Of a stretch of DNA of 40,707 nucleotides, positions 1-40,707 are shown one piece after another. Where the stretch lies: the IMG/VR virus record IMGVR_UViG_3300028653_000170, positions 1 to 40,707 of that record; one strand, given 5' to 3'. Position numbers and translations under genes: made by a program. Below the pieces are notes generated by a model, which saw only the letters and a list, made by a program, of their open reading frames with translations, made no database searches and had not been told where the DNA came from. The number at the start of each line of letters is the position of its first letter. Positions within the stretch are counted from its first letter, which is position 1. Origin of the DNA: a virus.

Positions 1-127
1 TAACTATAGAATTAAAGTAACAAATAAACTTCCTGATTCTAGTAATCATCACCAACTCCCCCATGTCTTATTAGGATCATTAAATGGTGTCTTGTAGTAC
101 AGCCCGGGCATTTGATTTACATCCCCG
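1..127. repeat. Terminal overlap, left copy
   Basis: Bases 2-127 are identical to 40582-40707; base 1 differs from 40581 (t versus g). The copy covers the 3' end of the GT2 gene and the first codons of the small gene that ends at 40369. The overlap joins the two ends with genes in register, as expected for an assembled circular or circularly permuted phage genome. Its length, close to a common assembly k-mer size, suggests an assembly overlap rather than a physical terminal repeat. Confidence 0.9.
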
Positions 128-828
128 ACAACAGGATGACCCCACTTTTTAAGGAAGTATTCTTGGTTCTTAGGAAATGTTATAGAGTTCTTATTCCATT
201 CTTCTCTATCAGACTTAATAGTTCTAGATCCATAATGAAAGAACTTAGCGCCACCGTATATAAGAGCTGTTCCTCCTGAAAGCTTAATTCTGTAATGATA
301 ATCTCCATCTTCACAATAAGCAGGCTTAAAGTTTTCGTCAAATAACCCTACTGTATCTAGAATCGAGGGTTTTACCATATAACAACTGAAATGTGGGTGT
401 TCGTTAAAGTTTTCATCCTCAGGACAAGTTTCAAGACTAGACAGGTCTGCCCACTCACTCATAGTCCACATGCAAGCCTCGGGATGATTCTCGGCAAATG
501 CTACAAGACGATCTATCGCGTTAGACTTTAAAACAATATCGTTATTAACTACTAAAACATAGTCCAAACCTAACTCTTTAGCTTTATTTATTCCTGTGTT
601 CCAGCCTTTAGCTACTGACTGTTCACCATCAGGGAATGTCAGAACCAATTTAACAGATTTATCCAAGACATACTGTATAGGAAAGAACTCTGGTGCAATA
701 TAATTCTCGCACGCTATATATGTTAGTTTGTTCTCACGTGATGCAAATGATTGGGTCGTTAGATTAAGATACTTTAAATGCTCGTCATTCTTAATATAAA
801 TAGGTGATGTTATTCCTACATTAACCAT
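49..828 (-). CDS. Family 2 (GT-A) glycosyltransferase
   Basis: This 259-residue protein looks like a GT-A fold glycosyltransferase that moves a sugar from a nucleotide donor to an acceptor glycan. The acidic donor/metal motif is the NND at residues 95-97, inside a strand reading YVLVVNNDIV. A second acidic stretch near residue 170 (AYCEDGDY) matches the usual catalytic base region (GLFDE...ED.D). The start is well supported by an AAGGAGAA Shine-Dalgarno 6 nt before ATG. It overlaps the dehydratase gene upstream by 13 bases, and its TGA shares one base with the ATG of the next gene across the circle junction (TGATG at 40627-40631). It belongs to the late sugar cassette. The family call is strong; donor and acceptor are unknown. 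Confidence 0.85.
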   Translation of the reverse strand: MVNVGITSPIYIKNDEHLKYLNLTTQSFASRENKLTYIACENYIAPEFFPIQYVLDKSVKLVLTFPDGEQSVAKGWNTGINKAKELGLDYVLVVNNDIVLKSNAIDRLVAFAENHPEACMWTMSEWADLSSLETCPEDENFNEHPHFSCYMVKPSILDTVGLFDENFKPAYCEDGDYHYRIKLSGGTALIYGGAKFFHYGSRTIKSDREEWNKNSITFPKNQEYFLKKWGHPVVGDVNQMPGLYYKTPFNDPNKTWGSW

Positions 829-1823
829 TTTTTATTCTCCTTCATCCATAAAACTGTCTTCTCTAAAGATTGGTTCAAGTCCATTGGGGGTACCCACCCC
901 ATACTCTTCATCTTTGCAGAGTCTAGACCATAATGCATATCATGACCCGGTCTAAATGAGTGAAAATCCTCCATTCTTATCTCTGGTGTCTTATGTAATA
1001 TTTCACCGATCCTTTGAACAATATCAGCACAGCTTGCCCACTCCCCGGCAATATTATATCTTTCGCCCGGTTTACCGTTTTTAAGTACAAACAACAGACC
1101 ATCAGCATGATTTCTAGCATGTAACCAACATCGCGATGATATATCAACTATTTCATTGTGAACTATTTTACAATGTACTGTTACCTCTTTACCTTCTAAA
1201 ATATTCTTAACGACCTTGGGTATAAACTTCTCACAATTCTGTCTCTCACCGAAATTATTCATAGTGTTTGTAATAACAATCGGCATGCCGTATGTATTCC
1301 AATAAGCATAACAAAAAGCTTCGGCTCCCGACTTAGATGCTGAATAAGGGTTAGATGGTCTATGTGGTTCGCCTTCAACATGCATGGTCAATTTACCTTT
1401 CTCATAATGAACCGGACCATAAACTTCGTCTGTTGAAACGTATATAAACCTTTCTAGATTGGGTAGGGACTTTGCATATTCAAGCATATTGACTGTGCCC
1501 AAGACATTACTTTCGGCAAAAGGAATAGGATCAGTTATAGATCTATCAACATGAGACTCAGCACCCATATGAATAATATAATCCACGTGACCTATTAAAT
1601 TCTTTGTAGTTTCAGAAATGGCTGCTCTAAAGTCATGATATACAAAACTTACCCTATGACCCTCGACTTTATAAATATCACTATCAGTTAGAAAGTTTAG
1701 ATTTCCAGCGTATGTAAGTCTGTCCAAAACAACTATATCCCAATCAGTTCTTTCAAGAATATGCTCTACTGTATGAGAACCTATAAATCCTGCTCCACCT
1801 GTAAGAAGTAATCTTTTAGTCAT
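816..1823 (-). CDS. Nucleotide-sugar 4,6-dehydratase (RmlB-like, extended SDR)
   Basis: This 335-residue extended short-chain dehydrogenase closely resembles dTDP-glucose 4,6-dehydratases, which turn an NDP-hexose into the NDP-4-keto-6-deoxy sugar. The N-terminus carries the Rossmann NAD motif TGGAGFIGSH (residues 8-17). The catalytic region has STDEVYG, with the Asp-Glu pair typical of 4,6-dehydratases, followed by YSASK, which gives the catalytic Tyr and Lys. Length is normal for the family (about 330-350). The gene starts within the end of the upstream methyltransferase gene (8-base overlap), and no clear Shine-Dalgarno is seen, so coupling is likely. No thymidylyltransferase, epimerase or reductase follows, so a host-made NDP-sugar is probably the substrate and other phage enzymes may use the product. 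Confidence 0.9.
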   Translation of the reverse strand: MTKRLLLTGGAGFIGSHTVEHILERTDWDIVVLDRLTYAGNLNFLTDSDIYKVEGHRVSFVYHDFRAAISETTKNLIGHVDYIIHMGAESHVDRSITDPIPFAESNVLGTVNMLEYAKSLPNLERFIYVSTDEVYGPVHYEKGKLTMHVEGEPHRPSNPYSASKSGAEAFCYAYWNTYGMPIVITNTMNNFGERQNCEKFIPKVVKNILEGKEVTVHCKIVHNEIVDISSRCWLHARNHADGLLFVLKNGKPGERYNIAGEWASCADIVQRIGEILHKTPEIRMEDFHSFRPGHDMHYGLDSAKMKSMGWVPPMDLNQSLEKTVLWMKENKKWLM

Positions 1824-2376
1824 ATTTTAATCTATAGTCACTTTCTGCGGATAAATTTTTTATAGCTTTAAGTTCTACCGTCATGTGATGAACTTCCACC
1901 TTAATACTAACTTTTTCAAATCTACTTATATGGCCGTAGTGATCATGAAATCCGTAATAATCTCCACAAAAATAGTTCACTTTCTCCTGACACCAAAAGT
2001 TTAAATGAGTAGGGTCTTGAAACACCGCCTCACTCGGGAGAACGGGAACAAAGAAGAAGAATCTCCCCCCATCCTTTAATACTCGATATATCTCGTTGAA
2101 TATATTTATAAGAGGTGTTTCTCTTCTATAATTCATCTGTTTTTTACCAGCATCGTATTCAGCCAAATACAAAGTTTCTGGTAGATGCTCTAAAAAGTCA
2201 TACGCCGTAACAAGCTCAAAAGAATTATCTTCAAAAGGAACTTTATCTAATACCAAATCCGCCTGTCTAAAATGTTCCTCGTCTATAACAGTAGGTTTTA
2301 CAATATCCGTACCGAAGTATTCATAGCCATCCCAAACTCTTTTAGCATTTCCCATACCGACATCAAGTTGCTTCAT
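1816..2376 (-). CDS. SAM-dependent methyltransferase (class I)
   Basis: This is a compact class I methyltransferase of 186 residues. The sequence has a glycine-containing SAM loop near the start (LDVGMGNAKRVW), the motif FELVTAYDFLEHLPE around the middle, and the typical IYRVLKDGGRFFFFVP strand-loop of Methyltransf_11-like enzymes. The ATG at 2376 was chosen because it forms an ATGA overlap with the stop of the upstream glycosyltransferase; an in-frame GTG 12 bases earlier is the alternative. Context points to sugar O- or N-methylation, but the acceptor cannot be read from sequence. Confidence 0.8.
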   Translation of the reverse strand: MKQLDVGMGNAKRVWDGYEYFGTDIVKPTVIDEEHFRQADLVLDKVPFEDNSFELVTAYDFLEHLPETLYLAEYDAGKKQMNYRRETPLINIFNEIYRVLKDGGRFFFFVPVLPSEAVFQDPTHLNFWCQEKVNYFCGDYYGFHDHYGHISRFEKVSIKVEVHHMTVELKAIKNLSAESDYRLKYD

Positions 2377-3161
2377 CGTATTATCCACGGCAGTTTACCC
2401 CTCCATTTTTCTATAAATCTTTTCTCTGATGCTTTATAAGATGCTAGATCCCCTGTATAACCCGTTGTTCCCATCTTCTCATCAATCCATTTGGCGTAGT
2501 CTGACCTATTAGCAGTCAAACCATTCAAGTGATGGCAGTACACCTCAATAAACCAGTTTTCATACCCCGCATTAAATGAAGACATGGATAAATCTTTATC
2601 GTAGAAATGGTGAAATGTATAATCTTGATCGAATCCACCGACCTTTTCCATCATCTCACGTCTACAAATAAGAGAAATGCCATCAAACCCTAGAACTCTC
2701 TTATTACCTGTATTTCTAGTGCCATGAACCTCGGCTTCTACAAAGTTAGAGTTACAATCCATGCGTCCGCCATCATAACCAAATCCACTACAACCAAAGA
2801 ACCCTGCAAGTCCGATATTTGAGTTGCTTTCAAACAAATCTAGCACTCTTTTATCCCAACCCTTTTCTAAGACAAGTAAATCGTTATGTAATATAGCAAT
2901 GACATCTCCCTTCGCTTCTTTCCATGCCTGTTGCATAGTCTTAACAACGCCTAGATTTTCTTCGTTTCGTATTAATCTATGATCAGGAAAATGTGGAAAG
3001 ACATACTTTGTGATCCATTCTCCACTGCCATCCGTTGAATTGTTATCAATAACTAGAAGTTCCACATCGTTCTTGTTCTCTATATTAGCAATATGAGCAC
3101 CCCAGACACCTTTCGTATCATCTATTTGATTCATAAAAGGGATGGCTATAGTAAGTTTCAC
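2373..3161 (-). CDS. Family 2 (GT-A) glycosyltransferase
   Basis: This 262-residue protein is a typical GT2 enzyme. It opens MKLTIAIPFMNQ, has the donor-binding IDNNSTDGSGEW segment, an HND variant of the DxD motif in IAILHNDLLVL, and the later GGFDQDY acidic region. The start codon is GTG, and the overlap GTGA with the upstream methyltransferase stop implies translational coupling. It differs clearly from the GT2 at 49-828, so the two probably make different linkages. Family is clear; specificity is unknown. Confidence 0.85.
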   Translation of the reverse strand: MKLTIAIPFMNQIDDTKGVWGAHIANIENKNDVELLVIDNNSTDGSGEWITKYVFPHFPDHRLIRNEENLGVVKTMQQAWKEAKGDVIAILHNDLLVLEKGWDKRVLDLFESNSNIGLAGFFGCSGFGYDGGRMDCNSNFVEAEVHGTRNTGNKRVLGFDGISLICRREMMEKVGGFDQDYTFHHFYDKDLSMSSFNAGYENWFIEVYCHHLNGLTANRSDYAKWIDEKMGTTGYTGDLASYKASEKRFIEKWRGKLPWIIR

Positions 3162-3676
3162 TTGATATCTTTCTTGATTTCAAAATAGTAATGAGTGGGC
3201 GTTATAAAACTCACACTAGAATTATATACCCTTTGTAAATATTCAGGAAATACTACAGATTTTACCCATTTAGTGCCGCCAATCTGACCCCAGACACTCT
3301 GGTCTGGCATCGGTGTAATACCTATTACACGGTCACTAGCGACCCGTAGCGCCTCTTCTAGAGTTTTTATAGGATTACTAGTCTGTTCAAGAATACAAGA
3401 TAGTACAACAACTGGAACTTCTCCATCTTTATAATCTAAACACTCAGATGCACCCCAATAAACATCTAAACCCTTAGCTCTAGCTTTATCAACCATTTGA
3501 CCTGATAAATCTACACCATGCCCATGTCCACACTTTTCAATTAAGTAGCCGCTATTACAACCAACATCTAAAAAGTCGTCCTCTCCTATTTGTTTTACCA
3601 AATAGTTAATAAACAGATCATTTAATGGGCTATGACCCTCTTCTATTTCAACGTCGTAGAGATTGTCCTGAGACAT
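3158..3676 (-). CDS. SAM-dependent methyltransferase (class I)
   Basis: This 172-residue methyltransferase has the canonical motif I FLDVGCNSGYLIEKC, followed by GVDLSGQMVDKA, where the acidic residue binds the SAM ribose. Two in-frame ATGs exist. The one at 3676 is favoured because GGGAGAA lies about 10 nt upstream; the ATG at 3694 is itself fused to that purine run and has none before it. The gene overlaps the upstream deacetylase by 34 bases. It is probably a sugar methyltransferase by context only. Confidence 0.78.
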   Translation of the reverse strand: MSQDNLYDVEIEEGHSPLNDLFINYLVKQIGEDDFLDVGCNSGYLIEKCGHGHGVDLSGQMVDKARAKGLDVYWGASECLDYKDGEVPVVVLSCILEQTSNPIKTLEEALRVASDRVIGITPMPDQSVWGQIGGTKWVKSVVFPEYLQRVYNSSVSFITPTHYYFEIKKDIK

Positions 3677-4224
3677 GCGTCTAGTTTCTCCCATGAATAA
3701 CCAAATTGATTACCGTCTTTAAATCTCCATGAATGACAATAGATAATAGGGTCAGTGGGTGTTTGACCGTACATAGACATGCCCTCAAGATAATCCTCAA
3801 GACGTTGGGACTTACCTAGTACTTTTAGACCACATACCCTATCGTCATATTCCTCCGATTGTTCATTAAAAGGCAATACAGCATAGGTCGGTGCAAAACC
3901 CCAAACATGCAAGATCTCACAACACGTCTGTTGATCCTTTTTAGTAGGTCTATGTGTATGACGAAAACCGTGTGTACCAATAAAATCGTCCCTGTTCAAT
4001 AAAAAGTCGAAAACCTCCGTATTATCTTTGAAAGTTTGACCAGTACAAGAGTAATCGAATATCTTGTCATTATCCCACCCACTATCAATGTCTATTGTAT
4101 GCCCAATTAAAGTTATGGCTTGGATAATTTTGAAACCATATTTGTCACATATCTCACAAAACTTATATATCTCGTTTATATCTGTAGAAAACCCAATGTC
4201 ATCATTCCTGATTATCGGTAACAT
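3643..4224 (-). CDS. NodB-type polysaccharide deacetylase-like protein
   Basis: The 193-residue protein resembles carbohydrate esterase family 4 (NodB homology) enzymes, which remove N- or O-acetyl groups from glycans. It has a paired Asp motif (RNDD, residues 6-9) for the catalytic base and metal ligand, the metal motif HGFRHTH (family pattern H-x3-H), and a late CHSWRF that may supply the catalytic His. Start at the ATG at 4224 is supported by a GGAGAG Shine-Dalgarno; the longer frame would need a TTG. It lacks a signal peptide, so it should act in the cytoplasm on a carrier-linked or nucleotide-linked sugar. The fold call is moderate because overall similarity is distant. Confidence 0.7.
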   Translation of the reverse strand: MLPIIRNDDIGFSTDINEIYKFCEICDKYGFKIIQAITLIGHTIDIDSGWDNDKIFDYSCTGQTFKDNTEVFDFLLNRDDFIGTHGFRHTHRPTKKDQQTCCEILHVWGFAPTYAVLPFNEQSEEYDDRVCGLKVLGKSQRLEDYLEGMSMYGQTPTDPIIYCHSWRFKDGNQFGYSWEKLDACLRTISTTLK

Positions 4225-4682
4225 ACAACTCTCCAATCTCTTATGGGCATATGCATTATGCCTTGCTGAGTAAATTGAATATCTTTAAATCCTACATCTT
4301 TTAATAACTGTTCCAGTTCAGACTTTTCGTAAACATAGTGGTGCAAAACAATAGGATCAATTGCAACGTCTTGATTTCCATGTAAACCCCATCTTCCATG
4401 AATATCGCCCTGTTGATACATCTTAATAGTTTCAGATAGGTCAGTAAACTCAATTGTCATCTTCCCACCGTCCTTTAAAACTCTATACCAATCACTCAGA
4501 ACATCAACAAACTCCCATTTATAGAACGATTCAATAACATGAACAGCCACTATCTCATCCACAGACTCATCCTGATAAGGCAATGGTAGTCTTAGGTCAT
4601 GCTTGACATCTGCACCCTCGCACAGATCTACATTAATAAACCCATCAATCCTAAGATCTCCTCCGCCGAGATTTAATTTCAT
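4212..4682 (-). CDS. SAM-dependent methyltransferase (class I, short)
   Basis: This 156-residue protein begins MKLNLGGGDLRIDGFINVDL, a predicted SAM-binding start seen in short methyltransferases of glycan clusters. It continues with ADVKHDLRLPLPYQDESVDEI and VHVIESF, and a WYRVLKDGGKMTIEF segment typical of Methyltransf_11-like proteins. A strong GAGGAGG Shine-Dalgarno precedes the ATG. It overlaps the upstream GT4 gene by 4 bases and the downstream deacetylase by 13. It is the third methyltransferase of the cassette. Confidence 0.8.
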   Translation of the reverse strand: MKLNLGGGDLRIDGFINVDLCEGADVKHDLRLPLPYQDESVDEIVAVHVIESFYKWEFVDVLSDWYRVLKDGGKMTIEFTDLSETIKMYQQGDIHGRWGLHGNQDVAIDPIVLHHYVYEKSELEQLLKDVGFKDIQFTQQGIMHMPIRDWRVVCYR

Positions 4683-5464
4683 AACATTACCTCCTCGTAC
4701 AATTTATTAAAACGCTCGCATAAATTAGGCCATGTAAGATGCGATACTTGTGGGGATGTATAAAACTTCTCTATCTCATGTTTAATGCTTTCAATGCTTC
4801 GATCACACTTATGACAATTTAACTGTGATGCATACCCAACATTTGTAGTTATAAATGGTTTGTTGATCGCTGAGCATTCTACTGCAATTGTGTTAAATCC
4901 CTCATTAACCGAGGCTATAACCATAAGATCAACGCTATTATAAAACCCCAACATATCCTCTGGTTTAATATTCTCATTTGCAACAATAAGATTGATACTA
5001 AGTTCATCACAAGCCTGTTTAACAAAATAAAATCCTTTATAATCTCGGCTATATTCTTGAAACGCCATACCTACAGTGAAAGGGTGACTTGGCCTAAAGT
5101 CCTCAGTTAAACCATCTGGAATATACACGGCATCCGGGAATTCTTCCAAAAGAGAAACATTTACGACGTGAGTTTTAAAACGCTTTGCTAAATCTTTTAC
5201 GTAATCTGCATATCTAAAGCTTCTTATGCTCAGAAGCAGTGGTTTGGTAAAACTTTTCACCGCATCTAGATGGCTACCAAAGTCCCAGTTAAGATAATGC
5301 GTCATGTCATGACTATTAACCTTATCTATCAGTTGCTGATTATCTAGTCTAGTGTAAAAATCGAGATCAATATCGTACTTATCTGAAAGGTTATCCATCA
5401 TTTTATGGGCTATCCTATCAACAATCCAACCCTGTCCATCAGATAGCATTAATACTTTTTTCAC
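4679..5464 (-). CDS. Family 4-like (GT-B) glycosyltransferase, short
   Basis: The 261-residue protein is a short GT-B type glycosyltransferase. The C-terminal half has the nucleotide-sugar region of GT4: a strand around IYIPDGLTEDF and then SVDLMVIASVNEGFNTIAVECSA, which matches the E-x7-E donor-binding motif. The usual N-terminal acceptor lobe is reduced; full-length GT4 enzymes have about 350-400 residues. It overlaps both neighbours by 4 bases (ATGA type). This could be a minimal active enzyme or one that pairs with another cassette protein. Confidence 0.75.
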   Translation of the reverse strand: MKKVLMLSDGQGWIVDRIAHKMMDNLSDKYDIDLDFYTRLDNQQLIDKVNSHDMTHYLNWDFGSHLDAVKSFTKPLLLSIRSFRYADYVKDLAKRFKTHVVNVSLLEEFPDAVYIPDGLTEDFRPSHPFTVGMAFQEYSRDYKGFYFVKQACDELSINLIVANENIKPEDMLGFYNSVDLMVIASVNEGFNTIAVECSAINKPFITTNVGYASQLNCHKCDRSIESIKHEIEKFYTSPQVSHLTWPNLCERFNKLYEEVML

Positions 5465-6108
5465 CAGTTGTGCCCTCCCATTTCGTAAATGTTGTTATTC
5501 TCTCTTTGTCCTTCACGATCAAAGAACTTTACTTTAACCCCAGACTTCCATACTGCATAAGGAAAGGATATCTGATCTCGCTTTGACCCCCTTGTTATTT
5601 CACTCCACCAAATATTATTAAACTCAGTTACTTTAGGAGTATTTCGTCTTAAAATCATGGCACAATCTGCTAGTCTAGAACCATCGAACCCTTCATCCTT
5701 ATAGCGCTGTACCTGCTTGCTTATTAAATCCTCGGTATCAAACTTACCGCCTATACATTCCTGTGCCTCCTCGTATACAGTTCCTCTTTGAAGATGTGGC
5801 ATTATAGCCATGTCGTACTCCCCATCACCAAGTTGCTTGTTAAACAAAGTCTCGGCATCTACTTTCATATGGATATTCCCATCTATCCACATTGTGTCTT
5901 TACTAAAAAACAAATGGGGACAAATCTTATAGATCTTTGCTCTTCGACAATTATTAGACTCAGCACTATCTATTTTATGGGTATACCAACCTTCATAAAA
6001 GTCGTCTCTTGGAATATCGAGATCGTCTGTAAAAAGGTGATTTTCGTGGTCAAGATTATATGGAACAATTCTATCCTTTTTAGCTGTTATGGCAGTATAT
6101 AAAATCAT
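5461..6108 (-). CDS. TOD1/MUCI70 (DUF616)-like glycosyltransferase
   Basis: This 215-residue protein resembles the DUF616 (TOD1/MUCI70) glycosyltransferase-like family: an opening ILYTAITAKKDRI, then a host-lattice segment with RRAKIYKICPHLFF, MWIDGNIHM (predicted Asp-containing sugar-binding strand) and a C-terminal half rich in conserved aromatic residues (WWSEITRGSKRDQISFPYAVW). The start has an AGGTG purine run 7 nt before ATG. It is the first gene of the sugar cassette downstream of the packaging genes and overlaps the GT4 by 4 bases. The family match is from memory of motif patterns; activity is inferred. Confidence 0.65.
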   Translation of the reverse strand: MILYTAITAKKDRIVPYNLDHENHLFTDDLDIPRDDFYEGWYTHKIDSAESNNCRRAKIYKICPHLFFSKDTMWIDGNIHMKVDAETLFNKQLGDGEYDMAIMPHLQRGTVYEEAQECIGGKFDTEDLISKQVQRYKDEGFDGSRLADCAMILRRNTPKVTEFNNIWWSEITRGSKRDQISFPYAVWKSGVKVKFFDREGQRENNNIYEMGGHNW

Positions 6109-6119
6109 TTAAAAACACC

Positions 6120-6239: not shown

Positions 6240-6571
6240 ATCTTCCAGTCCGTCTTTCCCGGAGCAAGTGGTTTATATGGTGCATTAGCTATAACATCAC
6301 CTTTATTGTTTATAGTAATGTTTCTACCTTTATAAGTATACACCGCGGTAGGTCTTGCAACAGCATATGCATCATTAATACCTTTTACATTGTCATATAA
6401 TGCATCATCTTTCTTCTTCTTCTCTATATATTCTGGGGTTTCTCTACATTCAGGACAGGGTGTTTTGTGGCATAGGCCGTCGAACTTACAGGAATTGGGT
6501 TTATGGCATCTTGGACACTCAATGTACTCAGGTATTTCAGAACCGAATAATATAATCTTTGATTTAGCCAT
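6236..6571 (-). CDS. Zinc-ribbon protein of unknown function
   Basis: The 111-residue protein has two Cys pairs, CPRC and CPEC, near residues 20-45, separated by a further CHKTP segment, so it likely binds zinc. The C-terminal half has no recognised domain. The ATG at 6571 was chosen because ATGGCTAA overlaps the TerL stop; the longer frame would start at TTG. It sits directly behind TerL, where some phages carry HNH-like packaging helpers, but no HNH catalytic motif is visible here. Confidence 0.65.
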   Translation of the reverse strand: MAKSKIILFGSEIPEYIECPRCHKPNSCKFDGLCHKTPCPECRETPEYIEKKKKDDALYDNVKGINDAYAVARPTAVYTYKGRNITINNKGDVIANAPYKPLAPGKTDWKI

Positions 6572-7991
6572 TGTTTTTATTATACATCGAGGCAAATTGA
6601 AGAATTCCTGATTCTATTTTACCACTCATAAAAGCTAGTGCCAATGCGTCTGCTTTATCAGGTGATGGTAAACCACGTTTCTTCATGTCTTCTTTAGACT
6701 CCATCTCAACTTGACCCTTAATGGTATAAAAATACTTAATAGATGCTAATTGAGACTTTAACTCGTCATCATCTGGTATTGAGATGTCGCCGTTTATAAA
6801 TCGTTCTCTTAGATTCCAATATATTTCAGCACGTAAATTCTTGAACAATTCTGGCTTCTGCGATGCTTTACCCACGTTCACATCCTCATAGGTCTTGAAC
6901 CTAGCTAATCTCTTTATTGTATCAACAACACCAGCTCCAACACCAACACCGTCGATTCTAGTAAAAGCGTACGGACGACTGGACATATAATTAAATAGAT
7001 TATTTGCTGTCTGTACAGTATCTTGTAATGTATAAGTCTTAATATCCAAAACCGTTGCACCTTTACGATATAGAAAGACTGTCTTATCATCACCATATCG
7101 TGCTACATCACAACCTATATTCTCTGGATCACCACTTATAGATTCAATCAACTTATTAGTGGCCTCCTCAATCTTAAACAGTGGGATCAGTGTATCTGTG
7201 CCCTGTGTTGGAAATTCACCTAATACACGAGATTCCCACATCGGTGAACCCTCTCCCCATCTTAAATACTTATCATAAACCCATTCGGGTGTAACAAGGT
7301 AAGGACGTGGCAGTTTACCTATAATCTTCTCTTCCCATTTATTGGCTTTAATATCCTCAAGTGTGATACCAAACTCCGTAAAGTTAGGAGTATCAAATGC
7401 ACTTATATGAAATGTTTTATAATTAGGGAGTTCAAAAGATCGGTGAAATGTACCCGTTATATTGGTAGGGTTACCTATAAGCAACTCCCGAGAGTTACCG
7501 GACGACAATATTCCCTCTGACGCCGTGTATATTTCCTCCTTAATACCGCTTGCTTCATCGCACACCAGTAAAATGTTCTCAGCGTGAAAACCTTGAAATC
7601 TATCTGGCTCGTTTGTAGATAAACCCAGAGCAAACCATTCATCATCTATATTCAACTTTGTAGTTGATAGGCTACCTCCCAATACTTTGTAGTCGCCATT
7701 GGCCTTATTCCATGCGTTTGCAAGTTCTCTCCATAGTATATCTGTAACCTGTCTAAATGACGGGGCTGTTGTTATAACTTTTGAATTAGGATGAGAATAA
7801 AGAAACTGTAGAGCGATCCTTGCAGCAAGCCATGTCTTACCGCTACCGTGGCATGACTTTATAGATACACGTTTATAATCTTGTAACGACCGGGATATAT
7901 CTCTTTGCATTTCCCAAAGAGAGTCACCAAATATCTTCTCTATAAATCTATCAGGATTGTTCGATAGGTGTTGTATTGTCTTCGATATCAT
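6564..7991 (-). CDS. terL: Terminase large subunit (ATPase-nuclease)
   Basis: This 475-residue protein is the DNA packaging motor. The ATPase domain has a Walker A-like SCHGSGKT at residues 46-53 and a Walker B ILLVCDEA at about 140-147 with the catalytic Glu. The RNase H-like nuclease domain starts at GCDVARYGDD (Asp at residue 295), with further acidic positions in TRIDGVGVG and in SPDKADALALAF near the C-terminus. Length is standard. The gene overlaps the small subunit by 41 bases. It acts at the portal vertex, pumping and cutting concatemeric or circular DNA. Confidence 0.97.
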   Translation of the reverse strand: MISKTIQHLSNNPDRFIEKIFGDSLWEMQRDISRSLQDYKRVSIKSCHGSGKTWLAARIALQFLYSHPNSKVITTAPSFRQVTDILWRELANAWNKANGDYKVLGGSLSTTKLNIDDEWFALGLSTNEPDRFQGFHAENILLVCDEASGIKEEIYTASEGILSSGNSRELLIGNPTNITGTFHRSFELPNYKTFHISAFDTPNFTEFGITLEDIKANKWEEKIIGKLPRPYLVTPEWVYDKYLRWGEGSPMWESRVLGEFPTQGTDTLIPLFKIEEATNKLIESISGDPENIGCDVARYGDDKTVFLYRKGATVLDIKTYTLQDTVQTANNLFNYMSSRPYAFTRIDGVGVGAGVVDTIKRLARFKTYEDVNVGKASQKPELFKNLRAEIYWNLRERFINGDISIPDDDELKSQLASIKYFYTIKGQVEMESKEDMKKRGLPSPDKADALALAFMSGKIESGILQFASMYNKNNG

Positions 7992-9464: not shown

Positions 9465-9476
9465 ATCCTTATTATA

Positions 9477-12772: not shown

Positions 12773-12774
12773 AT

Positions 12775-28840: not shown

Positions 28841-29854
28841 TTATTGATAAGCAAGTCCGCCAATTTTCTTCTGATGAACCTCGTAAATCACTTTCAAAAC
28901 CGAAGTCTCATACACACGAGAGATCACTGAGTGATTTGCAGTTGCAGGTTCGTAAACTGATAATGGATCCAAATCTTCTACTTCTATAGCATTTTCACCA
29001 TTTGGTTCAGTTATTGTCAAAAGATATCCCCACGAACCACTGTACCTTGACGAAATGACATCGATCAAAGAACCATCAACAGAATTGACGATCTTTGACA
29101 AATGTATTCCACCAACGCCAGCTCCTTGGTTATCAACTACGATTCTTTGAATCGAACCACTACCTTGTAAATCGTCTGCCAAAGCTTTGATTTGGTATGG
29201 ATTTGCAACAAGTTTCTGGAATACTGCACCATAGCTCCAGTAAGGAGATAAGATTTGTGCGGCAATGCCGGAAGCTGTTAATAGTGATAAGGTTCCTGAG
29301 TTAGTCGTTAAGGTCTTACCTAAACCATCGAACTCTGTTGAGTCAATAGAACTATCTCCGTTTAGGATCATGTTCTCTTCACCTAACATAACTTCGTAAG
29401 TTTTAAAACGAACTAATTCATCTCTAATCGCTTGATATCCTCGGCTCGAGGCAATTGCTTGTCGACCTACTTCAACATCTGCTCCTAAATTCTTATAAGC
29501 GGCAGTCGTAACTGACATTGTATAAGTTGTAGAAGTGTTTGGTTGACCAGCGTCGGCAAAACCCGCTTTATATCCCGTACCTGCGGTGGAACCCGAAATA
29601 GTTCCTGTTCCTTTGTTGCCCGGTGCTAACTGTGAAGTTAACATTTTCCAAGCAGCAGCTTGACCAAAACCTTTAGTTCTTGGCAATACCGATCTTAACG
29701 GAGTTGCTGTTGGAACCATCAGCTTTACAACTGGATCAAGGTTTTCAGGTGCAAAAATAGAACGAGCAGCAGGACTGAATGCATAAGTCGAGTTTGTGGT
29801 CGCCTTCTGCATCATATCTTTAAGCTCACCTAATGTTTTTTCTATATCTGTCAT
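28841..29854 (-). CDS. Major capsid protein (HK97 fold)
   Basis: The 337-residue protein is of normal length for an HK97-fold capsid protein without a long delta domain. It has the pattern of a phage major head protein: LDPVVKLMVPTATPLRSVLPR near the start, a repeated glycine/threonine-rich loop (GNKGTGTISGSTAGTGYKAGFADAG, probably the E-loop) and a C-terminal STLKVIYEVHQKKIG region. It follows the protease gene directly, as expected. Confidence 0.9.
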   Translation of the reverse strand: MTDIEKTLGELKDMMQKATTNSTYAFSPAARSIFAPENLDPVVKLMVPTATPLRSVLPRTKGFGQAAAWKMLTSQLAPGNKGTGTISGSTAGTGYKAGFADAGQPNTSTTYTMSVTTAAYKNLGADVEVGRQAIASSRGYQAIRDELVRFKTYEVMLGEENMILNGDSSIDSTEFDGLGKTLTTNSGTLSLLTASGIAAQILSPYWSYGAVFQKLVANPYQIKALADDLQGSGSIQRIVVDNQGAGVGGIHLSKIVNSVDGSLIDVISSRYSGSWGYLLTITEPNGENAIEVEDLDPLSVYEPATANHSVISRVYETSVLKVIYEVHQKKIGGLAYQ

Positions 29855-32521: not shown

Positions 32522-35500
32522 CTAGACAATAATCTCACCATCTATAAGCAGTGATGGCTTTGCCTTTGACACTTTCATATCAAGGTTCGTATCAATTGTT
32601 GCTTTTTGATCTAAAAGTGCGTTATGTTCTTCTGGAGACAACCCCGAACCTGACGAGTATGAAAATCCCTCAACTCTATTAAAGTTTAAACACACAGAAG
32701 CCCCGTTTGTTAGGTCGAAAATATTTGTTGCAGCCCCGCTGACTGGCGTGATGTTAGCCCCCGTTAAATTTAAGGGATTTGAGGTGTCTTGGTTTATTAT
32801 CTTCATCGTATTGGCAAAGATGTAGTGTGTGGCATCTGTCGCAGTGATATAAGTCCCATCCTGATCGCGAATTCCAGCTGCCGTAAAAAGGTAATATTGA
32901 TACCAGTTGTAGATTCTTTGTCCTGTCGTTGTGTTATCAGGGTCATCAACGTATATACGAATTGTTGCCTCAGAAATTGAACACTCGGTTACAGTTGAAC
33001 CGTCAACATTAGCCGTTTCATAAATTGTATTTTCAACCTGTGTGGCTACAAAACTTAATCCTGTATTCGTCACCGTCCCTGTTTGGGTGTGCCAATAGTA
33101 GGCAGGAGTAGTACCTGAAACATACATTAAACGAATACGAATAGAATGGTCTGCCCCTGTGTGGATAAAGACTAAACTTGATGTTGTACCTGCAACAGTG
33201 TTGTTAAACAACTCCGAACTGGATGTTAAATCGTAAATTTGTAGTCTTGAACCTGCGACTATTGCTGATAGATTGATTTTGACTCTGGTAGTAGAAGCAT
33301 CGGCTAGAATACCTGTGAAGTCACCTGTTCCTGTCATTGTGTAAGTTCCAGTGCCTGACATAACTAACTTCTTACCAGTAGCAGTAACGGTTATCCCTGT
33401 ATTAACTATGAATCCCCAATTTGTTGGCAAGGAGAAAGTATTACCATCAGCAGTTGTCATTGGCACTGTCTTGGCTAGATTTGCAGCCGTGGAAGCCATT
33501 GCCTGGCAATAATCATAAATCTCTTGCATTGTGTGATTAGAACTTAGAGTTATTGTTTTAGCTGTCCAGTCTATTGCTATTCCTGTATAAGCCGAAGCGG
33601 TAGCAAAAGAGGCTGAAACATAAGGATTAACGGTTCTTAAGGGATTAGTTTCATCAAAGGTATAACCATAAAAACGAGCATTAGTGATAAATGGAGGTAG
33701 AACTAACCCATCAAGATATACTAAACCTGACGCATTATTAGACTGACCTGAAATAGTAACTGTTAAATTTCCTGCTGCTCCACTTGTTTGAGTGGCCGTC
33801 AAAGAATAAGGTTGCCAAGTTGCATCGTGTCCCACATCAACCGTTGCAGTAAATACCACAGGGGTTATTCCTAAACCTGTTATGGTTACTGTGGGGGCAG
33901 TATATCCTGAACCGCTATTCCTATAGGAAGCGTTGTATTGGAGATTTCCCATAATAGTAACAGGGACTCCGCTAACAGTTGGGATAGTAATTGAATAAGT
34001 TGTAGTTCCTGGATTGACTGTCTGTAACTTTACGGAGGAAGTGGAATTTAGGTAAGTAAAATTATCCCTTATCCAGTTACCATTTGGTAAATAGAGTTCT
34101 TGTTGGGTAACATCAGCATTTTTATTTACATTCTGAACTTGAAAAGCTCCCACTAAACCATATATTTGATTATTAAAATTTGCACCAGTAATACTACCGA
34201 AATTACAATTAGTCGTGGTGACATTGGTAATTCCTGGATTATTAGAACTAAAATTATTTTGATTATTACAAGAATTATTACCAACAGCAGGATAATTTAT
34301 TCCAAAGTCACAATTAACAAAATTTATAAAAGAACTACTGGCAACAGCAAATACATAATAACTTGAGGTTATCTTACAATTAGTTAGGGTTATTCCGAAA
34401 CTTGTTCCCGCATATACAGTGTATCCTTGACAACAAATAAAATGACAGTTAGTAAATTGAATATTCAAACCCCCTGATGAATAATTACTATATATCGAAT
34501 AAGAAGAAGTGAAGTACGAAACTGAATTAGTTACTTGTAAATAACAATTTTGTTGCGCACAAAAAGCATAACCGTGGTTGACATAAACAGCTATATTATT
34601 AACAGTTATGGGTGTGCATTCCCCAAAATTGGCATAACCGTAACAAATTCCCCCAGAAGTACTCCTATATATAGCTAAATCAGAAACATTGGCGTACACG
34701 GCTGTGGCAGTAGGACTGTTATTTGAGTAAAGGTTTAAACCACCCTCTTTTACAGCAACTATAGTGACCAAAGTATCAGTACCTGTAGCTGATCCTAGAT
34801 TCCAAAAAGAAGCGTAGCGAAGATAACGAGTATTAGTTGAACCTAAATTAGCATGATATAAAGTTACAAAACCAGGGTAAGTATCACTATAATTTTTGAA
34901 GGTAACATTGCTTGTGAAATTACCAACATCGACTCCATTTAGATGAGTATAGGTAAAGTTACTCGTAACTGTAACATTATTTCCCGAAATTCCTCCAGTG
35001 GCTATAACTCTAACTTCAGAGCGAATAGTTCCATTGTAAACATCAGTTGAAGCTACCACGATAGTATCTCCGTCTGCCCAACCTGTAGTATCGGCAACTG
35101 TTACAACTGCCTGACCTGAATTAACTTGTGCCGTAGCCGTAGTATTAATAGTTTTAGTCTTACCATAAACATAGAAGTTCCCGCCATCAGCGCACCATAA
35201 ACCATATTTTCCATCTACAGGAGTAGCAGAATAGTTGAGAAGTATAGTGTGTGTATAGCTCGTAGGAATAGCATCACCGCTTTTTCCATAGTCAAAAGTA
35301 CCGCCATTAAGAATCACCAAATGACCTTTACAGGTTAAGGAGGATGAAGCAGAACGTGAAGCCTTTAATGTTCCTGACACCTGAATAGCTGAAACGGTGT
35401 CATCTCCCCAAATATAAGTGTTTTCAATCGTAACAACGTGACCTGCAGCAATAACAACACTATCTCCCTCCACAGGTACAGCTCCACCACTCCAAACGGT

Positions 35501-35545
35501 AGTATCAGAAGCCAAACCTGTTTTCTGTGATGTTCTTACTGCCAT
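32522..35545 (-). CDS. Large beta-helix/G8-like spike protein (about 1007 aa)
   Basis: The largest gene of the window. The N-terminus (VWSGGAVPVEGDSVVIAAGHVVTIENT) resembles the G8 domain, then a parallel beta-helix-like array (ITVNNIAVYVNHG, FTNCHFICCQGYTVYAG, TLTNCKITSS) of short beta rungs with Asn and Cys ladders, and a beta-rich C-terminus with several Ig-like parts. Beta helices of this kind often act as polysaccharide-binding or -cleaving spikes. No catalytic residues can be named. The ATG at 35545 has GGGAGG 5 nt upstream; the in-frame ATG at 35557 is part of that purine run. Confidence 0.68.
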   Translation of the reverse strand: MAVRTSQKTGLASDTTVWSGGAVPVEGDSVVIAAGHVVTIENTYIWGDDTVSAIQVSGTLKASRSASSSLTCKGHLVILNGGTFDYGKSGDAIPTSYTHTILLNYSATPVDGKYGLWCADGGNFYVYGKTKTINTTATAQVNSGQAVVTVADTTGWADGDTIVVASTDVYNGTIRSEVRVIATGGISGNNVTVTSNFTYTHLNGVDVGNFTSNVTFKNYSDTYPGFVTLYHANLGSTNTRYLRYASFWNLGSATGTDTLVTIVAVKEGGLNLYSNNSPTATAVYANVSDLAIYRSTSGGICYGYANFGECTPITVNNIAVYVNHGYAFCAQQNCYLQVTNSVSYFTSSYSIYSNYSSGGLNIQFTNCHFICCQGYTVYAGTSFGITLTNCKITSSYYVFAVASSSFINFVNCDFGINYPAVGNNSCNNQNNFSSNNPGITNVTTTNCNFGSITGANFNNQIYGLVGAFQVQNVNKNADVTQQELYLPNGNWIRDNFTYLNSTSSVKLQTVNPGTTTYSITIPTVSGVPVTIMGNLQYNASYRNSGSGYTAPTVTITGLGITPVVFTATVDVGHDATWQPYSLTATQTSGAAGNLTVTISGQSNNASGLVYLDGLVLPPFITNARFYGYTFDETNPLRTVNPYVSASFATASAYTGIAIDWTAKTITLSSNHTMQEIYDYCQAMASTAANLAKTVPMTTADGNTFSLPTNWGFIVNTGITVTATGKKLVMSGTGTYTMTGTGDFTGILADASTTRVKINLSAIVAGSRLQIYDLTSSSELFNNTVAGTTSSLVFIHTGADHSIRIRLMYVSGTTPAYYWHTQTGTVTNTGLSFVATQVENTIYETANVDGSTVTECSISEATIRIYVDDPDNTTTGQRIYNWYQYYLFTAAGIRDQDGTYITATDATHYIFANTMKIINQDTSNPLNLTGANITPVSGAATNIFDLTNGASVCLNFNRVEGFSYSSGSGLSPEEHNALLDQKATIDTNLDMKVSKAKPSLLIDGEIIV

Positions 35546-35691
35546 AGTCCCTCCCATTCCTTCAAACTGTTAATCTCAGTTATCTTCTCTCCTTCAACTA
35601 CAATTAGTTTAGCAGGGTCATCATCACACCGCCAAAGTTGTTTGGTATCTTTTTCTGTAACCCATGAGTATTCTTTATTTCTATAAATCAT
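35536..35691 (-). CDS. Hypothetical small protein (51 aa)
   Basis: The 51-residue protein (MIYRNKEYSWVTEKDTKQLWRCDDDP) is charged with aromatic residues and ends inside the start of the spike gene (overlap of 10 bases); it overlaps its upstream gene by 4. It carries no recognised domain but fits the operon tightly. Confidence 0.55.
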   Translation of the reverse strand: MIYRNKEYSWVTEKDTKQLWRCDDDPAKLIVVEGEKITEINSLKEWEGLWQ

Positions 35692-36383
35692 GCCCAGCTC
35701 GAAACTGTCACGGAATTTGTTACATTGTTTTTAGCTACTGTTTTAGTATATGAGGTACTACCGATTGTCTTTACGACTGTGGTTGTTGTAACATCGCCTA
35801 CTGTGGCCTCGGTGGTTGTTATTGAAGCATTACTCTTGGAAGGGTCAGTGGGAATAGTTTCTAGTATCTTTGTTTTACTCTGACCACTAGATGAAGCCGC
35901 TACATAAGCGTCAGCCAATGCGTTATAGAAATGCTTCCCATCAGTCAAACGAACGGGAACATATTTAGAGGGATTAGCCTTACCCGGAGTATCCCCCTCA
36001 CCTGTTGGAAGATCTATAGTCGTAGGATTTGTAACCTCTACCTTCATTTTACCCGGGAATACAGCATCTTTTTGATTTGTTATCTCCACTTTCTGCACAT
36101 CAGGAACCGCAACAGGATTAACAACTTCAACTCTTTGAACGTCGGGAAATTTAGCCTCCTGTTGATTTGTTACTTCAACCTTTTGTACTTCCGGAAAAGA
36201 AATATCTTTTGCATTAGTTATTTCAACTTTATGCATATCAACTTGAATTTCTTCTATCTTTTTCGAAAACTGTCCGATGATCTTATCGAAACCTTCTTTT
36301 AAGACTTGTCTAATAGAGCCGGCAGATACATCCTGCTCCTTCTTGGCCTTATTTATCTTTACGTTTTTATAAATATCGTTCAT
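35688..36383 (-). CDS. Repeat-containing structural protein
   Basis: The 231-residue protein follows the portal gene (ATGA overlap; GAGGAA Shine-Dalgarno; ATG at 36383). It has a coiled start (EGFDKIIGQFSKKIEEIQVDM), then about five copies of a VE[IV]TN...FP[DE]VQ[KR] unit of 15-18 residues (residues 50-125), then a Gly-rich hinge and a Thr/Val-rich beta end. Such repeats suggest an extended shaft. A role in a head or neck fibre with the next gene is inferred only from order. Confidence 0.6.
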   Translation of the reverse strand: MNDIYKNVKINKAKKEQDVSAGSIRQVLKEGFDKIIGQFSKKIEEIQVDMHKVEITNAKDISFPEVQKVEVTNQQEAKFPDVQRVEVVNPVAVPDVQKVEITNQKDAVFPGKMKVEVTNPTTIDLPTGEGDTPGKANPSKYVPVRLTDGKHFYNALADAYVAASSSGQSKTKILETIPTDPSKSNASITTTEATVGDVTTTTVVKTIGSTSYTKTVAKNNVTNSVTVSSWA

Positions 36384-38671
36384 TGTTCCTCGGGTAATAG
36401 TCCATTTAAATAGCAACGACAGTTTGGATGCAGTGGTGGGGCATCATCTCCACTTGAAAAATTTTCATCTGCATTGACTATTTCACCATCCATATCAGCA
36501 CAATCTGGACATGTCATTTCGTCTTCTGATGTAACCCAAACCTTCTGAGTAATACCATTCTCATCATAAGTCTGCAGTTCCCCCTGCATTGATGCATTAG
36601 CAACCTCCGTATTAACAATTGTATTTGCCCTTTCATCTGATATTGCATCGTATTCGTCTGATATTTGTGAAGCAATTTCAGCATTTGTAAGTAGTTGATC
36701 CTTGCCGTTTATTATTGTGTTAATTAGCCAGTCCTTTGTTGTATTATCCAGAGAATCAATTATATATGCTTCTCTGTCTCCTAATATATCCATAAACTTC
36801 TGGTTTGTCATTTGAAAAGAAGCAAGACCCAACTTTCTTGCTGCATTTGAAGCACCGTAGCCGAAAGACCATTTAAGATATCCTACAAGATCGGGTATGT
36901 CTACTTGAGGCATCTCCGAATCAACATCGTCGCCAATTGCTTTCTCCATCTTAGTAAATGAGGCAATCTTGTCCTCTAACGTAAATGGTTTTATCTGTTT
37001 TAATAGGGCTTTCTTAACTGCAACCTTAAACTTATCAAATTTAGGGTCTTGAATAAGTCCATCAATAGGATTTTGTCTTATAAGTTTGGCTCTTTTGAAT
37101 ACATCTTTAACATCCTCCAAGCTTTTAACATGTCTTAGGCCGTTCTCGATAATTATCTTTGCTGATTTAGTCAACGAATCGTCCTCAAAAGAACGATATA
37201 CTTTACCTCGTAACTTAAAATCTTTTGTGGATTTCTTTTCCCATAGAGATAACACATTGTCCAGACCATTCATTTTTCCTGTTTGAGTTGTTGTAGGCAT
37301 ATCATTTGGTTGCTCTTTTACAGGTTGATTGGTGCCACTAACTGTATTTGATTGAGGAGCTGCATTTTGTGCCGAAAAAGTAGCATTAATCTCTGTTAAA
37401 GGCACTATTGTGTTTCCGACAATAACAAAAGGATCAACTCCAAGTCTTGGTTCACCACGATCTTCACGAACATCGTCAGGACTAATAACACCTAAAGGGA
37501 TAAGCTCTTTAGCGTCTTCATTAGTATATTTAGATTCTAAACCCATAAATTGAAATCTTAATTCAGGATAACCCATATCAACTTCAAGTATTTCGGTAAA
37601 TATATCCTCAATAAAGTGAGCCAACGGCCTTAAACCTTTTCTCATCTGAATATCTTCTTGGCTACTGGCATTCTCCTTGTATTGTTGCAACGCTAGACCT
37701 AGTTCTTGAGCGGTAACATCAAATAACATAGCAACCTTACGATCTAAGTAGTCATAAAATTCTTTAAATTGAAAATCGGTTGGTTTTGTTACAGGTTTCC
37801 AATCTGAACCGCTCGGTAAAGGTACACCTTTTGCTTGTTCACGAGGATTACTCATCAAAGCATCAAAGAACGTCTTATATTCCTGTATTTGCTGTGGTGT
37901 CCAATTCTCGGGAACTGTATAAAATCCCATAGGCAAATTGCCGTCCGATAAATAGGCTGTATTAAACATGGCTGCCTTAATAGACGCATCAACAGTAACA
38001 ACTAACGATTCTAATGGCGATAAACCATAAGGAGTTGCAGTGCGAGGGTTCATTCTCTCGTATATAAGCTCGTCAGTGGTCATTTCCGCGGTCTTTTTAC
38101 CAGCAATCCATTGTTCAAACCCAATATCGGGTGCTCTTGCAATTAGTCCCGAATCATCAACTACCAACTTAATAGTGGCACCATCAATAGGCACAAGTCT
38201 TAAAAGCTTACCGCCTACAGTTTTTTGCTTATAAAGACATGCGGCGTCGAGAACTAATGTATCCTCAATGATTTTGTCTAGTATTTCTCTAAATCTAATA
38301 CCGGGGCCACCAATCCTGCTTAACACTTGTCTTATAGTGTATATAGCTTCGTCAGAATATGACTTTCCGTGATCTGGTTCAGAATCTACAACATCCCATT
38401 GAAGTTGAGTGATTTGTCTTTTCCTTAGATTAATAGCAGCACGAGTAGTCTCGTGATTTACTGACATTGATCTTAAAGTAGAGAATGTAATACCCGGACC
38501 AGCTACTCGTCTTGCAGCGTCATTAGATTGTGTTTGATATTGATAAGCCATTGCAAATGTTTGTGGTAATTGACTTTGAGATTTAGACATTTTCTCATAT
38601 AGCTTGTCAGTGACCTTATCTACAAGGGCTTTGCTTGCATAAACAGACTTTGATTTTGCTGCGGTCTTCAT
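36380..38671 (-). CDS. Portal protein fused to MuF-type minor head protein
   Basis: The 763-residue protein carries an N-terminal portal domain (about residues 1-430; ELIYERMNPRTATPYGLSPLESL, DRKVAMLFDVTAQELGL) and a C-terminal MuF-like domain (about 590-763; ANTIVNTEVANASMQGELQTYDENG, then TCPDCADMDGEIV...LHPNCRCYL with conserved Cys/His). In most phages portal and MuF are separate genes. The MuF end may be ejected into the host or form part of the head interior. Gene begins in a 4-base overlap with the HTH gene. Confidence 0.92.
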   Translation of the reverse strand: MKTAAKSKSVYASKALVDKVTDKLYEKMSKSQSQLPQTFAMAYQYQTQSNDAARRVAGPGITFSTLRSMSVNHETTRAAINLRKRQITQLQWDVVDSEPDHGKSYSDEAIYTIRQVLSRIGGPGIRFREILDKIIEDTLVLDAACLYKQKTVGGKLLRLVPIDGATIKLVVDDSGLIARAPDIGFEQWIAGKKTAEMTTDELIYERMNPRTATPYGLSPLESLVVTVDASIKAAMFNTAYLSDGNLPMGFYTVPENWTPQQIQEYKTFFDALMSNPREQAKGVPLPSGSDWKPVTKPTDFQFKEFYDYLDRKVAMLFDVTAQELGLALQQYKENASSQEDIQMRKGLRPLAHFIEDIFTEILEVDMGYPELRFQFMGLESKYTNEDAKELIPLGVISPDDVREDRGEPRLGVDPFVIVGNTIVPLTEINATFSAQNAAPQSNTVSGTNQPVKEQPNDMPTTTQTGKMNGLDNVLSLWEKKSTKDFKLRGKVYRSFEDDSLTKSAKIIIENGLRHVKSLEDVKDVFKRAKLIRQNPIDGLIQDPKFDKFKVAVKKALLKQIKPFTLEDKIASFTKMEKAIGDDVDSEMPQVDIPDLVGYLKWSFGYGASNAARKLGLASFQMTNQKFMDILGDREAYIIDSLDNTTKDWLINTIINGKDQLLTNAEIASQISDEYDAISDERANTIVNTEVANASMQGELQTYDENGITQKVWVTSEDEMTCPDCADMDGEIVNADENFSSGDDAPPLHPNCRCYLNGLLPEEQ

Positions 38672-38994
38672 AATTCCATTTTCCTATTTTTATCTCTTTT
38701 TATTGCGTCTATAACCATAAGTCCTTCTAGCCTAGCAAAACATTTCTGTCTAATACGTGTGATTGTAGAAGGATGTACGCCCTTCATCCAAGCTATTTCA
38801 AACGGTGAAAATCCATGTTCGAGAGATAAAACTATAAACCTTTCGGTATCATTAAGCATTTCCCTCATAATGCTTTGGAATCTAACGTCACTATCGTCGA
38901 AGTCTCTACATCCATCACTTGAAATCAATGACAAAGTATCAGGAGAATTCTGGTATCTTACCTCGAGTTCGTCCTCGTCGTACGACTTTTTCAT
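38668..38994 (-). CDS. Sigma region 4-like HTH protein (108 aa)
   Basis: The 108-residue protein ends with an HTH-like segment (FSPFEIAWMKGVHPSTITRIRQKCFARLEGL), which resembles sigma-70 region 4 or a LuxR-type HTH. The N-terminus is acidic. It lies between the sugar cassette and the portal, where it could be a late regulator or a packaging-linked protein. The ATG at 38994 is preferred because it overlaps the glycosyltransferase stop (ATGA). Confidence 0.65.
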   Translation of the reverse strand: MKKSYDEDELEVRYQNSPDTLSLISSDGCRDFDDSDVRFQSIMREMLNDTERFIVLSLEHGFSPFEIAWMKGVHPSTITRIRQKCFARLEGLMVIDAIKRDKNRKMEL

Positions 38995-40368: not shown

Positions 40369-40629
40369 CTAACCTAAATTCTTCTGTCTTTCCTTATAGT
40401 ATTCAACTGCCAGTTTCTGCTTGACTTTAGAAATATAAGCGTCGGCCTTCCTAGCAGATACTTCTTTGGCTTTATTGGTCTCCTTAACCACGATTTCCAA
40501 GTGCTTTTGATCTATACAGGGAATTATTAGCCAATGTATAGTATTTGCCCACGATACTCCCGACATAGTCCAAATATGAGGAACTATAGAATTAAAGTAA
40601 CAAATAAACTTCCTGATTCTAGTAATCAT
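40369..40629 (-). CDS. Hypothetical protein across the circle junction (86 aa)
   Basis: The 86-residue protein starts with aromatic and hydrophobic residues (MITRIRKFICYFNSIVPHIW) and ends in a charged helix (KADAYISKVKQKLAVEYYKERQKNL). The ATG at 40629 shares a base with the stop of the GT2 gene (TGATG); the longer frame from 40644 would overlap it more. The gene joins the GT2 gene at the window start to the GT4-SEC-C gene, so the sugar cassette is continuous through the circle junction. Function unknown. Confidence 0.6.
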   Translation of the reverse strand: MITRIRKFICYFNSIVPHIWTMSGVSWANTIHWLIIPCIDQKHLEIVVKETNKAKEVSARKADAYISKVKQKLAVEYYKERQKNLG

Positions 40630-40707
40630 CACCAACTCCCCCATGTCTTATTAGGATCATTAAATGGTGTCTTGTAGTACAGCCCGGGCATTTGATTTAC
40701 ATCCCCG
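40581..40707. repeat. Terminal overlap, right copy
   Basis: Bases 40582-40707 repeat 2-127 exactly. The copy holds the 3' end of the GT2 gene again, not a second gene. It should be counted once when the sequence is treated as a circle of about 40,580 bp. Confidence 0.9.

Follow-up and report, generated by a model that had tools for sequence, protein, structure and literature searches.

A glycan-building gene cassette between terminase and portal of an uncultured tailed phage, with a probable role in virion glycosylation

The DNA analysed here (the window) is the 40,707-nucleotide circular virus record IMGVR_UViG_3300028653_000170 of IMG/VR. It carries ten sugar-related genes between the gene for the terminase large subunit (TerL) and that for a portal fused to a MuF-type head protein. 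We propose that this cassette is a virion-glycosylation module. The phage would glycosylate its own particle, probably a head protein or a head fibre, and we put the probability of this reading at about two in three. A first-pass annotation had offered two targets, the particle itself or the surface of the infected cell. The cassette that it described, embedded in the packaging and head module, stands, and the comparative data favour the particle. This preference has three grounds: two of the glycosyltransferases (GTs), named GT2a and GT4-SEC-C, are co-inherited with the head genes, they are near-universal in the head lineage, and they have no membrane-embedded partner.

Results

Position and layout of the cassette

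The first-pass annotation placed nine sugar genes in tandem, and all nine open reading frames (ORFs) are present within positions 49-6108, all on the minus strand (Table 1). The tenth gene, GT4-SEC-C, had been placed across the junction of the record ends, with the whole set between TerL and portal. This is borne out by the end repeat, in which the last 126 bases of the window exactly repeat bases 2-127. Since the contig is circular, TerL, the cassette, a 91-aa ORF, GT4-SEC-C, a 113-aa ORF and portal-MuF form a single same-strand run. Read along the minus strand, the order is TerL, a 119-aa ORF, TOD1-like GT, short GT4, the methyltransferase MT3, the putative deacetylase, MT2, GT2b, MT1, the RmlB-like dehydratase, GT2a, the 91-aa ORF, GT4-SEC-C, the 113-aa ORF and portal-MuF.

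The overlaps within the nine-gene run are 4, 4, 4, 8, 13, 16, 25 and 52 bases, near enough to the 1-50 first given. A gap of 127 bases precedes the TOD1-like GT gene. The promoter and terminator scan of positions 1-9500 gave signals below or at chance level, and only gene order points to the cassette being an operon and being late. The GC contents compared (0.374 vs 0.384) do not mark the cassette out as a recent import. At the DNA level, the window has no near match among the phage records. Single-sequence scans with TerL, portal and GT4 gave no relatives, and profiles were required.

Table 1. Features of the window discussed in the text.
Feature	Coordinates	Strand	Basis
GT2a, core GT2 glycosyltransferase, 259 aa	49..828	-	PHROG_29879 70 bits; AlphaFold GT-A fold; recurrent GT2a-GT4-portal order
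RmlB-like nucleoside diphosphate (NDP)-hexose 4,6-dehydratase, 335 aa	816..1823	-	Full-length PDB homology and short-chain dehydrogenase/reductase (SDR) motifs; Pfam RmlB-type SDR 182 bits
MT1, class-I S-adenosylmethionine (SAM) methyltransferase, 190 aa	1816..2388	-	Pfam Methyltransf_11 36.8 bits
GT2b, GT2 glycosyltransferase, 262 aa	2373..3161	-	Pfam PF00535 61.6 bits
MT2, class-I SAM methyltransferase, 178 aa	3158..3694	-	Pfam MetW/Methyltransf_11 35/32 bits
Possible NodB/DUF2334-type carbohydrate deacetylase, 197 aa; weak assignment	3643..4236	-	PF10096 22.4 bits, cut-off 26
MT3, class-I SAM methyltransferase, 156 aa	4212..4682	-	Pfam Methyltransf_11 30 bits
Short GT4-type glycosyltransferase, 261 aa; marginal	4679..5464	-	Pfam Glycos_transf_1 25.8 bits (cut-off 26.4); PHROG_2170 E 2e-7
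TOD1/MUCI70-like glycosyltransferase, 215 aa	5461..6108	-	Pfam PF04765 71.3 bits, E 1e-19
TerL, upstream border of the cassette	6564..7991	-	PHROG_2 134 bits; 42.6% identity to the nearest record, a Methanosarcinales-associated virus
Major capsid protein, anchor of the second sample	28841..29854	-	Family of 68 IMG/VR loci
Candidate acceptor: fibre-like protein, 1011 aa, G8 and beta-helix, between portal and protease	32522..35557	-	Candidate by inference only
Candidate acceptor: head-module protein with Ser/Thr-rich tail (40% S/T in last 60 residues) and VTN repeats	35688..36416	-	Candidate by inference only
Portal fused to MuF-type head protein, 763 aa, downstream border of the cassette	36380..38671	-	PF04860 87 bits, PF04233 71 bits
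ORF, 113 aa, between GT4-SEC-C and portal	38668..39009	-	Relative only in the closest locus, L096
GT4-SEC-C, core GT4 with C-terminal SEC-C zinc motif, 448 aa	38991..40337	-	Pfam Glycos_transf_1 44 bits, SEC-C 39 bits; PHROG_2170 166 bits
ORF, 91 aa, between GT2a and GT4-SEC-C, crosses the circle junction	40369..40644	-	No family match

Gene order in related phages

Relatives of GT4-SEC-C occur in 12 of 50,697 phage records, and relatives of GT2a in three, all among those twelve. S-CBS4 and phiPsal1 have the GT2a and GT4 relatives close together in the head module, with a methyltransferase alongside. In TJE1, terL and portal are preceded at a short distance by the GT4 and by genes for an epimerase, a nucleotidyltransferase and a methyltransferase. 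Profile scans of IMG/VR found GT2a in at least 542 stretches and GT4-SEC-C in at least 516. In 84,980 prokaryote species, by comparison, the GT4-SEC-C profile matched no more than 27 loci, most of them weakly. The GT4 is therefore largely a phage family.

With near-duplicates removed, a same-strand portal lies 217-4642 bp downstream of the GT4 in 32 loci: the window, 29 viral loci and two genome contigs. Of these, 26 also have a GT2a-family ORF whose end is at most 2.7 kb upstream of the GT4. The order GT2a-GT4-portal thus recurs in IMG/VR phages, with protease and MCP genes adjoining. Because it does so in dozens of independent contigs, chance is excluded. Another 13 GT4 loci are too short to judge the portal.

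We anchored a second sample on the major capsid protein (MCP), to avoid sampling by sugar genes. The GT4 is present in every one of the 20 loci that have a portal and 3.5 kb or more of upstream sequence. It lies in the fetched stretch in 19 of them; in the twentieth (L219) it is just beyond and was found by a whole-record search. Eight of the 20 are contigs that the GT searches had missed.

Some viral contigs have a second GT4 copy beside or near the GT4, away from a window-like portal. They are L137, L138, L140, L141, L144, L145, L146, L151, L154, L156, L159, L160, L162, L166 and L173. A GT4 homologue at G037:C1:11890-13260 (the record of L262) has one in-frame TAG and three TAA. These stops reflect either a pseudogene, a sequencing error or recoding.

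Co-inheritance with head genes

Co-inheritance was measured by correlating, over loci, the pairwise distances of one gene with those of another. The GT4 correlates with portal (0.90), MCP (0.92) and protease (0.91), and the GT2 with the same three genes at 0.89-0.91. The head genes correlate among themselves at 0.89-0.91 (MCP-protease, 0.91). RmlB shows lower values with the head genes (0.60-0.72). Over the eleven loci bearing all four genes, GT4-portal reaches 0.97 and RmlB-portal 0.76, with a bootstrap interval of 0.01-0.39 for the difference. The closest RmlB found to that of the window (68%) belongs to a different phage, where it is an orphan at L003:978-1964 with an unrelated terminase and portal a short way downstream. 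These data suggest that a conserved pair of transferases stays with the head genes, whereas the sugar-making cargo is exchanged.

The cargo was surveyed over 19 loci that extend 5 kb or more upstream: RmlB in 14, cpn60 in 10, FkbM in nine, DegT in seven, GNAT in six and a C-methyltransferase in three. L106 carries a cpn60 chaperonin, a DegT aminotransferase, a GT2, a GNAT acetyltransferase, an FkbM methyltransferase, GT2a, RmlB and the GT4, a predicted set that includes enzymes expected for an N-acetylated amino-deoxysugar. L107 carries a C-methyltransferase (Methyltransf_13/14), RmlB, a GT2, FkbM and further methyltransferases, and L020 carries RmlB, a GT2, a methyltransferase and a HAD phosphatase.

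The cpn60-type chaperonin has 515-552 aa and lies 4.7-10 kb upstream of the GT4 in its ten loci (L100, L102, L106, L109, L113, L122, L134, L028, L107 and L123). The window has no cpn60.

Enzymes of the cassette

GT2a scores under the Pfam cut-off (16.8 vs 23.3 bits). Its AlphaFold model, built with 28 relatives, presents a confident GT-A fold with a predicted local distance difference test (pLDDT) of 90.5. The top PDB fold match is Listeria RmlT, and TarP is also among the top matches, both with a template-modelling score of about 0.5. Residues D97, E173 and D174 are invariant among 29-31 relatives. The profile of GT4-SEC-C finds as its best PDB match B736L of chlorovirus NY-2A (E 2e-18), and the protein has an E-x7-E motif at residues 311-319. 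The predicted catalytic motifs of both enzymes are intact. The TOD1-like GT has distant relatives in 13 phage records, and its PDB search gave no match. None of the ten cassette proteins has a membrane helix: their top 19-residue hydropathy is 1.13, compared with 2.4-2.9 in the membrane-type proteins of the same phage. This excludes membrane-based serotype conversion.

The RmlB-like enzyme matches PDB dTDP-glucose 4,6-dehydratases across 330 residues (E 7e-61) and keeps the active-site motifs GxxGFIG, STDEVYG and YxxxK. Its score against TIGR01181 is 270 bits, under the equivalog cut-off of 365. We therefore name it RmlB-like, its substrate nucleotide being uncertain. RmlA, RmlC, RmlD, an aminotransferase and a reductase are all absent among the window proteins scanned. 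The complete phage-borne route claimed in the first-pass annotation does not hold, and the phage appears to encode only the dehydratase step. Either the host supplies the nucleotidylyltransferase, the epimerase and the reductase, or the keto-sugar is used directly.

The other labels given to the genes fared unequally. The GT and dehydratase assignments stand, as do the three methyltransferases, which all exceed the Methyltransf_11 cut-off (30-37 bits). The short GT4 is marginal. The putative deacetylase carries a D-D / HxxxH metal-type motif, has no PDB, phage or viral relatives in our searches, and its single-sequence model (pLDDT 42) gives an unusable fold. The deacetylated sugars of the earlier claim go back to this weak match.

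Other features of the window

The MCP family was found in two genomes of 0.7-0.8 Mb (G041 and G042, loci L268 and L269), one of them labelled Patescibacteria, which hints at a possible host among small-genome bacteria. However, matches to the family occur in only 2 of 380 genomes of that phylum, one of the two being weak.

The window encodes a Mom-family protein at 10999-11607 on the minus strand (PF25680, 111 bits), and the phage DNA probably bears the Mom-type modification of adenine. At 8325-9464 lies a gene for an N6/N4 DNA methylase that also has a ParB-like domain. Two low-complexity repeat proteins are encoded at 13350-14183 and 12506-12787 (minus strand). One has SAAWSAARSAES-type repeats behind a DUF7666 domain, and the other is nearly all Gly/Ser/Asp/Tyr (GSGDGYGYG).

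Discussion

Proposed mechanism

The core of the system would be the soluble pair GT2a and GT4-SEC-C, conserved at the sequence level just upstream of the portal. We infer that this pair builds an inner glycan on a head protein in the cytoplasm, during assembly. The most likely acceptor would be either the capsid protein or a fibre or decoration protein whose gene lies between portal and protease, a site where the fibre-like proteins differ among relatives. The RmlB-like dehydratase may turn host NDP-glucose into NDP-4-keto-6-deoxyhexose. Host enzymes could then complete the donor, or the keto-sugar could go in unchanged. GT2b, the short GT4 and the TOD1-like GT would lengthen the chain. The three methyltransferases, perhaps with the deacetylase, would cap and edit the glycan. 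The outer sugar-specific genes seem to be traded among phages, while the GT2/GT4 pair would stay with the head genes. Each phage would consequently display a different glycan.

Several points weigh against virion glycosylation. The glycan itself is predicted from the genes, and the candidate acceptors were picked only by their position and Ser/Thr content. Physical linkage by itself could cause the co-inheritance of GT and head genes. The link between the GT4 family and such heads is not general, as 35 other viral GT4 loci have no window-like portal across at least 5 kb downstream. The 20 MCP-anchored loci are not a fully independent sample, because the MCP profile was seeded from GT-anchored loci. 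In four loci of the MCP family, with 9 kb upstream seen, the fetched stretch contains no portal of this type and no GT4. Finally, GT2a matches the folds of RmlT and TarP, soluble enzymes that decorate teichoic acid, so enzymes that lack membrane helices may still have a surface target.

Alternative functions

These fold matches lead to the possibility that the cassette alters a host surface polymer, such as wall teichoic acid, S-layer or lipopolysaccharide. The change would block superinfection or aid the release of progeny, and the place in the late operon would serve only for timing. The closest folds of GT2a are RmlT, a rhamnosyltransferase with TDP-rhamnose as donor, and TarP, which is encoded by a prophage; both act in the cytoplasm as soluble enzymes and attach sugars to teichoic acid. 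Surface polysaccharide clusters also typically contain genes for deoxysugars, aminotransferases and C-methyltransferases. However, the window cassette has no flippase, polyprenol-phosphate transferase or membrane GT, and a membrane helix appears in only 12 of 230 upstream ORFs of the relatives, mostly very short ones. Moreover, the GT2/GT4 pair tracks the head genes and does not move independently. The benefit would also be brief, since neither an integrase nor lysogeny genes were seen. We consider a surface target unlikely.

The variety of the cargo could also mean that interchangeable 'moron' genes have piled up passively at a site where insertions are tolerated, and that they make no single coordinated product. 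The cargo does differ strongly among relatives, and several actinophage clusters have insertions between terminase and portal (PMC7302621). On the other hand, the relatives repeatedly have sugar genes upstream, the GT4 is kept at 20 of 20 MCP-anchored sites, the coding overlaps are tight and the catalytic motifs are intact, which makes a passive pile-up quite improbable. Even less credible is that the GTs glycosylate phage DNA bases against restriction. Phage GTs that hypermodify DNA are known (PMC12619734), and the window has the Mom-like gene and the N6/N4 DNA methylase. Nevertheless, the 30 window proteins scanned with Pfam, a set that leaves some small ORFs outside, include no hydroxymethylase, thymidylate-synthase-like protein or 5-hydroxymethyluracil (5hmU) kinase. 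A dehydratase, three methyltransferases and five GTs far exceed the needs of base glucosylation, and the GTs match protein or polysaccharide families.

Comparison with known systems

The first-pass annotation called such a cassette unusual, which needs qualifying. Sugar cassettes in structural modules are already known in Corndog, phiPsal1, S-CBS4 and TJE1, and virion glycosylation has been shown in mycobacteriophages. In the literature found, these few mycobacteriophages are the only tailed phages for which it has been shown. The account in PMC12363180, citing Freeman et al. 2023, describes mycobacteriophages whose own GTs add glycans to capsid and tail tube; the examples are Che8 gp110, Corndog gp35-gp38 and Myrna. 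Corndog has an O-methyltransferase, two GTs and a GlcNAc-transferase between portal and protease (PMC4351075). The window resembles the Corndog/Che8 type in having phage GTs and a methyltransferase inside the structural gene module; theirs were proposed, and by that account later shown, to glycosylate capsid or tail tube. It differs from Corndog in having ten genes instead of four, a nucleotide-sugar dehydratase, and evidence that is so far genomic. The tblastn hits of GT2a and GT4-SEC-C include no mycobacteriophage.

Chloroviruses (PBCV-1/NY-2A) encode their own capsid-glycosylation enzymes, and mimivirus glycosylation is likewise autonomous (PMC4691112). As in the window, a dehydratase, GTs and a methyltransferase are virus-encoded, and theirs build unusual deoxysugar glycans of capsid or fibrils. 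Chloroviruses, though, have a GDP-mannose dehydratase and algal hosts, whereas the window has an RmlB-type enzyme in a 40-kb tailed phage, and homology between the two is confined to the broad GT4 family. In phiPsal1, S-CBS4 and the Tetrasphaera phage TJE1, GT4-SEC-C relatives (22-40% identity) lie with methyltransferases in the head or packaging region. Their cassettes are shorter than that of the window, and we found no report of function tests on them. The Gtr serotype-conversion cassettes of temperate phages are also phage-borne glycosyltransferases. Gtr systems need the membrane flippase GtrA, GtrB with membrane helices and a polytopic Gtr. In contrast, the window cassette has no membrane flippase or membrane-anchored GT.

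Implications

Virion glycosylation might extend to a whole lineage of small uncultured tailed phages, a wider proposal that we hold tentatively and lean slightly against. A head glycan would be a core part of the virion, with the GT2/GT4 pair inherited with the capsid genes. The cargo (4-keto-6-deoxy, amino, C-methyl, O-methyl and acetyl functions) would be swapped like a serotype locus, giving antigenically or adhesively different coats. If this is true, glycan-coated heads would be normal in a widespread uncultured phage lineage, with a modular coat. The reasons for capsid glycosylation, such as stability, adhesion, or evasion of predation or antibodies, would become directly testable. Soluble enzymes for making rare methylated deoxysugars could also be drawn from these phages.

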